46,982 nucleotides of DNA, taken from assembly GCA_028689875.1 (NCBI GenBank), contig JAQVCG010000008.1, forward strand, positions 1 to 46,982. The letters run 5' to 3'. Source of the DNA: Candidatus Rifleibacteriota bacterium. Its GTDB lineage: Bacteria; Muiribacteriota; Ozemobacteria; Ozemobacterales; Ozemobacteraceae. The translations under genes and the position numbers were made by a program. Below are positions 35,961-37,598 of this stretch, piece by piece. Position 1 is the first letter of the stretch; each line of letters opens with the position of its first letter. The notes below the pieces were generated by a model. It saw only the letters and a list, made by a program, of their open reading frames with translations. It had not been told where the DNA came from and ran no database searches.

Positions 35961-36252
35961 CTTAAGCCTCTTTGTTGATGGGTTTTTTGATTATAACGAT
36001 TAAATATTTTGGTGTCAATTAAGTGTTAATAACTACTTAAATATTTTAAAAATAATGTGTGTTTTTTTATCGATTAGAACGCGATGATAATGAAGGTTGT
36101 GTTGAGAATAAAGTCGACTGGATATTCGCCTGTTATGAATGTCTCTGTTTATCGTGATTTAAGAGATGTGTGTAATTTTCACTTAATACAAAATAAACAC
36201 TTTATGTCCTGTGCAAATTATGCAAATACAGCTTGTTTATAGCTTTTCCGGT
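35961..36252. other. Intergenic region upstream of the first regulatory RNA
   Basis: AT-rich region holding the minus-strand lipoprotein promoter at its left end and, on the plus strand, sequences upstream of the first sigma-54 promoter. TGTGCAAATT at 36210-36219 also occurs upstream of the second sigma-54 promoter (36734-36743) and may be part of an activator site. A 52-codon frame (36084-36242) has no ribosome binding site and is not called. Confidence 0.5.
35990..36018 (-). promoter_or_regulatory. Consensus sigma-70 promoter of the lipoprotein gene
   Basis: On the minus strand TTGACA (36018-36013), a 17-nt spacer and TATAAT (35995-35990): both hexamers are perfect. Initiation near 35983 leaves a leader of about 22 nt with an AGAGGC site before the ATG. 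Confidence 0.88.
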
Positions 36253-36269
36253 TTGGCATAATAATTGCT
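36253..36269 (+). promoter_or_regulatory. Sigma-54 promoter of regulatory RNA 1
   Basis: TTGGCATAATAATTGCT, with GG at 36255-36256 and GC at 36267-36268, the exact 10-nt separation of the -24/-12 class (consensus TGGCAC-N5-TTGC). Predicted initiation is near 36280, exactly where the first RNA hairpin begins. Activation would require an enhancer-binding protein, none of which is encoded in the window. Confidence 0.82.
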
Positions 36270-36413
36270 TGATAAGTAATGAAGGTGAAGAAAAGTAACC
36301 TTCTAGCTCATTGAAAGTAAAAAAGTCCCAGTGGAATCAGCATATGATTAAGGCATAAGTCCTGTCACACCTTTTTTTATATAGCTACGAGTTCAACTCA
36401 ATGTCTTAATTAA

Positions 36414-36467
36414 CTCTCTCTCTCTCTCTCCTCTATTGATACAGCACACACACACACACCACACACA
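36414..36467 (+). repeat. CT and CA simple repeats in RNA copy 1
   Basis: A 21-nt alternating CT tract (36414-36434), the linker ATTGATACAG, then a 23-nt CA-rich tract (36445-36467). The same two tracts with the same linker occur in copy 2 but with different lengths. This is the behaviour expected of simple repeats that expand and contract while being functionally retained. Confidence 0.9.
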
Positions 36468-36556
36468 TACTAAATATGTTGTTTTTTCTGGGGCTTTTTA
36501 TAATTTGTCATCATCCTGATGACTCAAGTATCCTCTCAAAAGATCCTCTCACTTAT

Positions 36557-36581
36557 TCCCCGGTAACGGGGATTTTTTTTT
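36557..36581 (+). terminator. Intrinsic terminator of regulatory RNA 1
   Basis: Stem TCCCCG/CGGGGA with loop GTAA and nine T. Copy 2 keeps the identical stem with a different, longer loop. Confidence 0.93.
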
Positions 36582-36826
36582 GATAATTAATGCATAAACT
36601 GAGTCTCTGAGTGAGTGGTTTGAAAAGCCAGATATGTGTTTTGATAGAAAGATAACTATAGAGTCTATACAAAATAGATCAATATAATTGTATGTTGTGC
36701 GTGAAAAAAAAACACTTGTGTGAAAAAGACACGTGTGCAAATTCAATATTACTGAATTTATCTAATGAAAATAATGCTGACAGAGGTTAACAATGAATTT
36801 AACGGATAAATAAATGCTTTAAAAAG
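36582..36826. other. Spacer between the two regulatory RNA genes
   Basis: A 245-nt AT-rich stretch without a credible gene. It contains TGTGCAAATT (36734-36743), shared with the region upstream of copy 1, and the partly self-complementary surroundings AAGACACGTGTGC. It probably holds the activator-binding region for the second sigma-54 promoter. Confidence 0.45.
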
Positions 36827-36843
36827 TTGGCACGCCTTTTGCG
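36827..36843 (+). promoter_or_regulatory. Sigma-54 promoter of regulatory RNA 2
   Basis: TTGGCACGCCTTTTGCG: a full match to the TGGCACG-N4-TTGC consensus, with GG at 36829-36830 and GC at 36841-36842. Predicted initiation near 36854 is a few bases before the 5' hairpin. It is stronger than the copy 1 promoter. Confidence 0.9.
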
Positions 36844-37004
36844 TATTACTATCATGTCGAGTGAAGTTAAGTAACTCGCAAGATCATTGAAAACGAAAAA
36901 GTATTTCCGGGCGAAGGGCGTGTAGATTCGGTATGACCAATCGCAGCATTTTTTTTCGCAGTAATATAGTCAAAATCTGCAGTAATATGCAGACTACCAA
37001 ATCA

Positions 37005-37048
37005 CTCTCTCCTCTATTGATACAGCACACACCACACCACACCACACA
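37005..37048 (+). repeat. CT and CA simple repeats in RNA copy 2
   Basis: CTCTCTCCTCT (37005-37015), linker ATTGATACAG, then CACACACC and repeated ACC/ACA units (37026-37048). The CA tract here is interrupted by CC every few bases (CACACC), unlike the purer tract of copy 1. Confidence 0.9.
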
Positions 37049-37137
37049 AAACATGCCCAGAGCCCGGAAGCTTTTTATAATTTTTTGTCATCACCCCGAT
37101 GACTCAAGTATCCTCTCAAAAGATCCTCTCACTTTGT

Positions 37138-37165
37138 CCCCGCTTAACACCGGGGATTTTTTTTG
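37138..37165 (+). terminator. Intrinsic terminator of regulatory RNA 2
   Basis: Stem TCCCCG/CGGGGA (37138-37143 with 37152-37157), loop of 8 nt, then eight T. It ends two bases before the stop codon of the convergent rseC-like gene. Confidence 0.93.
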
Positions 37166-37166
37166 C

Positions 37167-37598
37167 TTATTTGGCTTTAGAGATAATTTCAAAATCGGGA
37201 GCTGATATTTTTTTCTTCGATACGAAATTTGAATACACAGATGCCGGAGCAAAGAGCAAAATAGCTGTTATTAAGCCGGCAGAAAATCTTAATATATCAT
37301 TGGAACTTTGAAAAATAAAGGGTGAAAGCAGAATTCCTGCGAAGAATCCTATTAGTGGCAACCCAAAAAGAATAAAGGCACCAAAAGCTGCGTTTATTTT
37401 TTGTAATGGTTCAAGTTCTATTGTTTCACCAACATTGTATTCATAGTCATCTTTTATAAGTGCTGTTCCGGTTACAGTTTCATTACATGGTGCAAATGCC
37501 TTAATGCATCCTTTGCATTCTTTGCAGGTTTCATCGCTGAGTATTTCTACTGTTATTGTTTTATTGTTTATTTTGAGTATTTTGCCCTTAATGGTCAT
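37167..37598 (-). CDS. RseC/MucC-family membrane protein
   Basis: A 143-residue protein. The N-terminal soluble part has a Cys cluster (TCKECKGC and a further PCNE) as in RseC-type proteins. Two transmembrane segments follow at about residues 70-92 (AFGAFILFGLPLIGFFAGIL) and 102-122 (RFSAGLITAILLFAPASVYS). RseC members are linked to sigma-E signalling or to the Rnf/Rsx SoxR-reducing system, and the rnf genes lie about 600 nt away on the same strand, which supports a redox link. The ribosome binding site is weak. The gene converges on regulatory RNA 2. Confidence 0.78.
   Translation of the reverse strand: MTIKGKILKINNKTITVEILSDETCKECKGCIKAFAPCNETVTGTALIKDDYEYNVGETIELEPLQKINAAFGAFILFGLPLIGFFAGILLSPFIFQSSNDILRFSAGLITAILLFAPASVYSNFVSKKKISAPDFEIISKAK

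Follow-up and report, generated by a model that had tools for sequence, protein, structure and literature searches.

A putative family of sigma-54-dependent, boxA-bearing regulatory RNAs in the Ozemobacteraceae (Candidatus Riflebacteria) with exact core copies in phage sequences

Several described groups of small RNAs come close to the locus reported here. The Qrr1-5 RNAs of Vibrio, controlled by LuxO, resemble it in having sigma-54 promoters under an NtrC-type response regulator, several related copies, a strongly conserved core, an intrinsic terminator and Hfq encoded in the genome. CrcZ, CrcY and CrcX of Pseudomonas, which depend on CbrB, are likewise multicopy RNAs of about 300-400 nt under sigma-54/NtrC-type control, with A/C-rich unstructured stretches of the sort that recur in some copies of the present units, and CrcZ sequesters Hfq/Crc. 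LhrC and RsaE, multicopy pairing sRNAs of the Firmicutes, share repeated single-stranded C-rich seeds in tandem and strong conservation of the core. In the Enterobacterales, the homologous sRNAs GlmY and GlmZ are transcribed with sigma-54 and an NtrC-type regulator (GlrR/QseF) acting on upstream activating sequences (PMC6075780), and GlmY is a protein decoy (PMC7073468). A further element of the locus, boxA, is an antitermination signal of rRNA operons recognized by NusB/S10, with the gamma-proteobacterial consensus GYTCTTTAANA (PMC5725501).

Here, we analysed a stretch of 46,982 nt (the window) on a contig of a metagenome-assembled genome (MAG) of 2.38 Mb and 71% completeness from Candidatus Riflebacteria, family Ozemobacteraceae. 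A preliminary description had placed two tandem units on its plus strand, each with a -24/-12 promoter of exact GG-N10-GC spacing, shared blocks of 28 and 37 identical nucleotides and a terminator, and every one of these lies where it was said to lie; the 37-nt block includes a 21-nt core. The description had missed the GTG-N9-CAC operators, the boxA, a long-range helix, the link to an activator and the phage copies. The features of both units, all on the plus strand, are as follows.

36168..36182, plus strand: operator GTG-N9-CAC of unit 1, GTGTGTAATTTTCAC, 86 nt 5' of the T of -24; putative sigma-54 activator site
36253..36270, plus strand: -24/-12 promoter of unit 1, TTGGCATAATAATTGCTT, score 19.9 of 20.9, exact GG-N10-GC; start predicted at ~36280
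36281..36303, plus strand: hairpin preceding boxA in unit 1, read from the sequence, in a boxB-like position; unit 2 and G001 have one too
36306..36317, plus strand: boxA of unit 1, GCTCATTGAAAG, the same as in 24/25 promoter-bearing copies and in the 23S rRNA leaders/spacer of the family
36319..36346, plus strand: predicted 5' arm of helix P1 in unit 1, RNAduplex -29.5 kcal/mol
36424..36451, plus strand: CU/CA-rich block of unit 1 inside the P1-enclosed variable domain, 28 nt, the same in unit 2
36473..36500, plus strand: predicted 3' arm of P1 in unit 1, pairing with 36319..36346
36507..36523, plus strand: predicted P2 hairpin of unit 1, GTCATC/GATGAC, the stem exchanged for GTCGCG/CGCGAC and others elsewhere
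36531..36551, plus strand: invariant 21-nt core of unit 1, TCCTCTCAAAAGATCCTCTCA, the same in 26/28 copies, four viral contigs and L062
36557..36581, plus strand: predicted intrinsic terminator of unit 1, with compensatory changes in the stem across copies
36701..36715, plus strand: distal operator GTG-N9-CAC of unit 2, from the spaced-trinucleotide analysis
36718..36732, plus strand: proximal operator GTG-N9-CAC of unit 2, at 17 bp spacing to the distal one
36827..36844, plus strand: -24/-12 promoter of unit 2, TTGGCACGCCTTTTGCGT, score 20.2 of 20.9, exact GG-N10-GC; start predicted at ~36854
36858..36878, plus strand: hairpin preceding boxA in unit 2, read from the sequence
36882..36893, plus strand: boxA of unit 2, GATCATTGAAAA, matching the boxA elements of the family
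36895..36924, plus strand: predicted 5' arm of P1 in unit 2, RNAduplex -36.5 kcal/mol
37005..37032, plus strand: CU/CA-rich block of unit 2 in the variable domain, the same 28 nt as in unit 1
37050..37077, plus strand: predicted 3' arm of P1 in unit 2, pairing with 36895..36924
37087..37103, plus strand: predicted P2 hairpin of unit 2, compared across copies
37111..37131, plus strand: invariant 21-nt core of unit 2, the same as in unit 1
37137..37164, plus strand: predicted intrinsic terminator of unit 2, with compensatory changes in the stem

The units could not be assigned to any of the described systems. A search of Rfam gave no match at the gathering score and none that convinced at E<=10, and the Rfam covariance models of Qrr, CrcZ and GlmZ in particular matched at neither threshold, so that the earlier claim of an unrecognised family unlike the Crc and Qrr RNAs stands. 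Unlike Qrr1-5, the units are two to three times longer, have another operator and core, and carry a boxA and a long-range helix; unlike the Crc RNAs, they contain an invariant CU-rich core. They differ from GlmY/GlmZ in sequence and structure, in carrying boxA and in that no link to RapZ is shown, whereas LhrC and RsaE have other sequences and are not known to carry a boxA or to depend on sigma-54. The sequence comparisons thus support the view that the two units are members of a previously undescribed regulatory RNA family. An open-access literature search found no paper joining 'Riflebacteria' and 'small RNA', and the present analysis gives the phylum a family of regulatory RNAs, structured and multicopy, together with a likely activator and regulon.

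A search by DNA similarity, together with an exact-match pattern for the core at the 3' end, located the core at 28 places. These fall in 20 of the 24 family genomes, whereas 16 genomes from elsewhere in the phylum have none, and the reversed pattern gave no match; the pair in the window is therefore not a product of chance. The relatives with the element bear the names Candidatus Riflebacteria, Ca. Ozemobacter, Ca. Rifleibacterium and Ozemobacteraceae; close relatives in this set are not independent, and some of the MAGs are incomplete. Each genome with exact cores holds one to three of them. A covariance model, the check on relatives that had been proposed at the outset, recovered diverged units as well, namely unit 1 of G001 (a partner unit) and the second units of G014, G018 and G019 (genus g11); beyond the family it yielded nothing convincing. 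Units stand in tandem in G000, G001 and G004 and, with the diverged partners, in genus g11; taking tandem and unlinked copies together, the redundancy first suspected for the window holds for many genomes. Copies of type 'a' adjoin rseC and Rnf genes, the arrangement of the window included, and those of type 'b' adjoin a putative Hsp33 gene (read as such from its sequence, without a domain scan). These differing neighbourhoods show that the units, 139 to 421 nt long across copies, are genes in their own right.

Genus g11 also has a second type of unit (L132:6025+, L133:5752+, L130:4272-), which combines a sigma-54 site, boxA and P1 with a conserved CTCCTCTCTCAACACACTCAAC domain and a single AATCCTCTCACTC seed only. 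Between the two units of the window, positions 36593-36690 hold the 3'-end remnant of a gene for a protein of 963 aa that is otherwise lost there; a sister genome retains the whole gene between its own two units (L129 4784-7675), and the gene has no match in Pfam or PADLOC.

Comparison of the copies establishes both the promoter and its operator. On a weighting of our own with a maximum of 20.9, a sigma-54 site scoring at least 19.2 lies on the same strand, 105-389 nt upstream of the core, in 25 of the 28 core copies, and on the opposite strand in none. Two of the three copies without such a site belong to the 3'UTR of the ptsN operon (G002, G007), and the third is found in G019 (L156). The operator GTG-N9-CAC occurs in 26 of the 29 regions upstream of units, against 0.7 expected from dinucleotide shuffles, and is the standout pair among all spaced trinucleotides there. 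Other sigma-54-like sites accompanied by it number 2 of about 33 (in 777 kb), one of which precedes ptsN in G002. When the combined pattern of operator and promoter was searched in the 24 genomes, it returned 28 distinct places, of which 19 are RNA units, 3 are ptsN promoters and 6 are neither, and its reversed control returned none. RpoN is encoded in all ten genomes of at least 90% completeness and at most 5% contamination; in the window's own MAG (71% complete), neither RpoN nor the orthologue of a HEAT-repeat protein discussed below was found. The proposal of tandem sigma-54-dependent RNAs is borne out to the extent that promoter, operator, RNA structure and terminator are kept without a protein frame, transcription itself being inferred.

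Three further loci are of note. In L156 of G019 (about 700-960), a sigma-70-like promoter apparently takes the place of the -24/-12 element, and boxA is retained. L260 (G006:C22:37663-37750), one of the 6 places that are neither RNA units nor ptsN promoters, has the operator and a sigma-54 site ahead of a predicted RNA that is short and ends in a terminator of its own, without boxA and without an exact core, in a genome that otherwise lacks the family. In L263 (G012:C153:40533-40625), the two elements stand before a gene for a secreted-looking protein, which is possibly a further member of the regulon.

In 23 of the 25 promoter-bearing copies, the T of -24 is followed after 29-31 nt by a boxA of the form G[CTA]TC[TA]TTGAAAA, or one close to it; in one more copy the distance is 37 nt, leaving G013 as the only one without the element; the motif has a background rate of 2.6e-4 per base. 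For the genus of the window the distance is 53-55 nt, and only there is a hairpin inserted between promoter and boxA. The identity of the element rests on comparison with 23S rRNA loci of the family, located with a DNA query: the leaders of the 23S operons, in which boxA follows a promoter and a hairpin, contain GTTCTTTGAAAATAAT (G004), GATCTTTGAAAATAAT (G015), GCTCATTGACAATAAT (G016) and GCTAATTGAAAATAAT (G014), the 16S-23S spacer of G017 contains GATCTTTGACAAG, and the resemblance is weaker in the 16S leaders of G011 and G018. The element of the units thus matches the boxA of the family's own 23S leaders and, like it, stands just 3' of the point where an untranslated RNA starts; the difference is that the transcript here is not an rRNA operon but a regulatory RNA of 160-420 nt driven by sigma-54. 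A boxA of the rRNA type is thereby assigned to a regulatory RNA, a class that one survey of Nus-factor targets had expressly left aside in not considering non-coding RNAs (PMC5725501). The RNA is probably antiterminated through boxA, although binding of NusB/S10 and suppression of Rho are inferred from the identity of the element. Predicted RNAs without boxA are the shortest (139 nt in G013, about 100 nt or less in G006), as would be expected if boxA shields long untranslated transcripts from Rho.

Comparison likewise establishes helices P1 and P2, the terminator and the invariance of the core. P1 joins an arm 3' of boxA to an arm 5' of P2, and the arm sequences of the a, b and G017 types are unrelated to one another; the mean RNAduplex energy is -24.6 kcal/mol for cognate arms, -14.9 for arms taken from different copies and -13.8 for shuffled arms (shuffles that preserve composition only). 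P2 has the stems GTCATC/GATGAC, AGTCGCGT/GCGCGACT and CATCGCATC/GATGTGATG, and both helices are, as judged from these comparisons, kept through compensatory changes, which also occur at several pairs of the terminator. The distance from the end of P2 to the core is 7 nt in most copies, with G005, G012, G017, G013 and G003 deviating. The core, UCCUCUCAAAAGAUCCUCUCA, is 21 nt long and the same in 26 of 28 copies, the two in ptsN operon 3'UTRs being one A short; the diverged second units are the other exception. It contains two AUCCUCUCA repeats at a constant 13-nt period with an A-rich linker between them, and in predicted ensembles the CCUCUC seeds are largely unpaired, with some pairing towards the middle of the core. 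The variable domain is short and not A/C-rich in b-type copies. A decoy of the CrcZ type, with A-rich CA motifs for Hfq/Crc in every copy, was considered and is not borne out by the b-type copies; since they lack the A/C-rich domain, it cannot be the shared functional part.

A candidate for the activator is found at a locus with the order era, HEAT-repeat protein, NtrC-type response regulator, ptsN, RsbW-like ATPase and ndk, in which the regulator has REC, Sigma54_activat and HTH_8 domains according to a domain search. A sigma-54 site with one to three GTG-N9-CAC operators lies 53-69 nt before ptsN, and operator and promoter precede ptsN in 16/16 genomes that have the regulator gene and ptsN side by side (some of these loci have no recognisable rsbW or ndk). 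The linkage of activator and ptsN is thus established by comparison. The HEAT protein is present in 23/24 family genomes, with only weak HEAT-repeat matches outside the family, a range that is close to that of the RNAs. In G002 and G007, the core and terminator are themselves part of the ptsN operon mRNA, at its end. The regulator beside ptsN is the best candidate for control of the RNA genes, inferred only from gene adjacency and shared sites, without binding data. The nutrient- or stress-responsive role proposed earlier remains an inference; ptsN (nitrogen-type PTS EIIA) and an RsbW-like kinase next to the activator fit a nutrient signal for the RNAs but are no proof of one. The regulon's own mRNAs contain no conserved GAGAGG, hence no feedback site was seen.

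The reading that we favour, and consider rather probable, is that of a free-standing RNA gene of ~300 nt, activated by sigma-54 and an NtrC-type protein and antiterminated by boxA, with a trans-acting core that most likely pairs with mRNA. The evidence is good for the upstream control and for the units being RNA genes; the action in trans and its mode are inferred. The activator from the HEAT gene/ptsN neighbourhood would bind GTG-N9-CAC and switch on sigma-54 polymerase at the RNA genes and at ptsN-rsbW-ndk. Following the start site, boxA would load NusB/S10 as in rRNA operons, allowing polymerase to pass a long, often G-poor untranslated domain without Rho termination. The RNA would then fold in order into P1 around the variable domain, P2, the exposed core with its two repeats, and the terminator. 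The C-rich seeds would most likely pair with purine-rich stretches of mRNA, probably assisted by one of two genome-encoded Hfq proteins, and multiple copies per genome would raise the dosage. An Hfq gene is present in 24/24 family genomes, most of which have two paralogues; in most Ozemobacteraceae, one is of about 80 aa and one lies in a longer frame.

Searches for a target of the core found none. At ribosome-binding sites GAGAGG shows no excess over its other permutations, and core duplexes with 263 gene starts of G016, a sample of one genome, were no better than those of shuffled cores; pairing as an anti-Shine-Dalgarno sequence is therefore not supported as a general mode by the tests on gene starts. 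No perfect 21-nt antisense target of the core exists, all 28 exact matches being units or 3'UTR modules. Pairing with 16S rRNA is not supported either, the match being no longer than for shuffles (1742/2000 equal or longer). The h11 loop of E. coli-type 16S rRNA, TGAGAGGAT, would match each core repeat; Riflebacteria have TGAGAGGGT instead.

With promoter, antitermination and regulon unchanged, the core might instead be a decoy in which the two repeats form a fixed two-site platform that sequesters an RNA-binding protein, a possibility that we regard as real though short of probable. It would account for the invariance of the entire 21 nt, linker included, in free-standing and phage copies, for the constant period of the repeats and for the absence of a complementary target, and GlmY/RapZ provides a precedent for a sigma-54-dependent sRNA acting in this way (PMC7073468), but no candidate protein has been identified, two repeats per RNA are fewer than in typical sponge RNAs, and tandem C-rich seeds are also usual in pairing sRNAs. 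Base-pairing through the C-rich seeds in tandem is preferred to protein binding by a narrow margin only, since the target test failed and the linker does not vary; an invariant A-rich linker is at least as compatible with a protein site.

The core and hairpin could also be a mere specialised terminator or 3' stability element, with the RNAs serving mainly as transcription events or leaders, given that an intrinsic terminator always comes right after the core, even in ptsN operon 3'UTRs and phages. We hold this to be improbable: in any one genome the core accompanies no more than one to three terminators, almost all of them governed by a single operator; the core stays constant where the terminators vary, and P1 and P2 are retained. 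That the units encode a small protein is hardly tenable. The sole open reading frame of at least 80 aa (36933-37205, 90 aa) does run across unit 2, but it is frameshifted and stopped in the sister genome G001, the units range in length from 139 to 421 nt and the changes are compensatory in RNA helices; this 90-aa frame is thereby excluded as the conserved protein frame that would have refuted the RNA reading.

Exact copies of the core in phages make phage mimicry of a host regulatory RNA a testable idea. Core and intrinsic terminator are present in four IMG/VR viral contigs (L271, L272, L273, L274) and in L062, a short phage-like MAG contig with a gene for the small subunit of terminase. It is conceivable, and we put it forward only tentatively, that several unrelated phages mimic the core in order to steer or blunt a host circuit, a sigma-54 regulon of the PtsN operon and multicopy RNAs with rRNA-type antitermination, in which the core is the whole effector. 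Relaxing the core pattern in the phage search added one match only, inside a coding gene, and the core matches of L065, L069, L085 and L275, which have no terminator, were set aside as chance. Neighbouring genes matched PHROGs for large and small terminase subunits, portal, major head and neck proteins, integrase and a CI-like repressor. As the positions of the core differ among the phages, its copies were probably acquired separately, with the exception of L274 and L062, which have it at a common terminase-side position. An origin from attachment sites was rejected: an integrase gene adjoins the core only in L271, and in the others the core lies by terminase, portal/capsid or neck genes.
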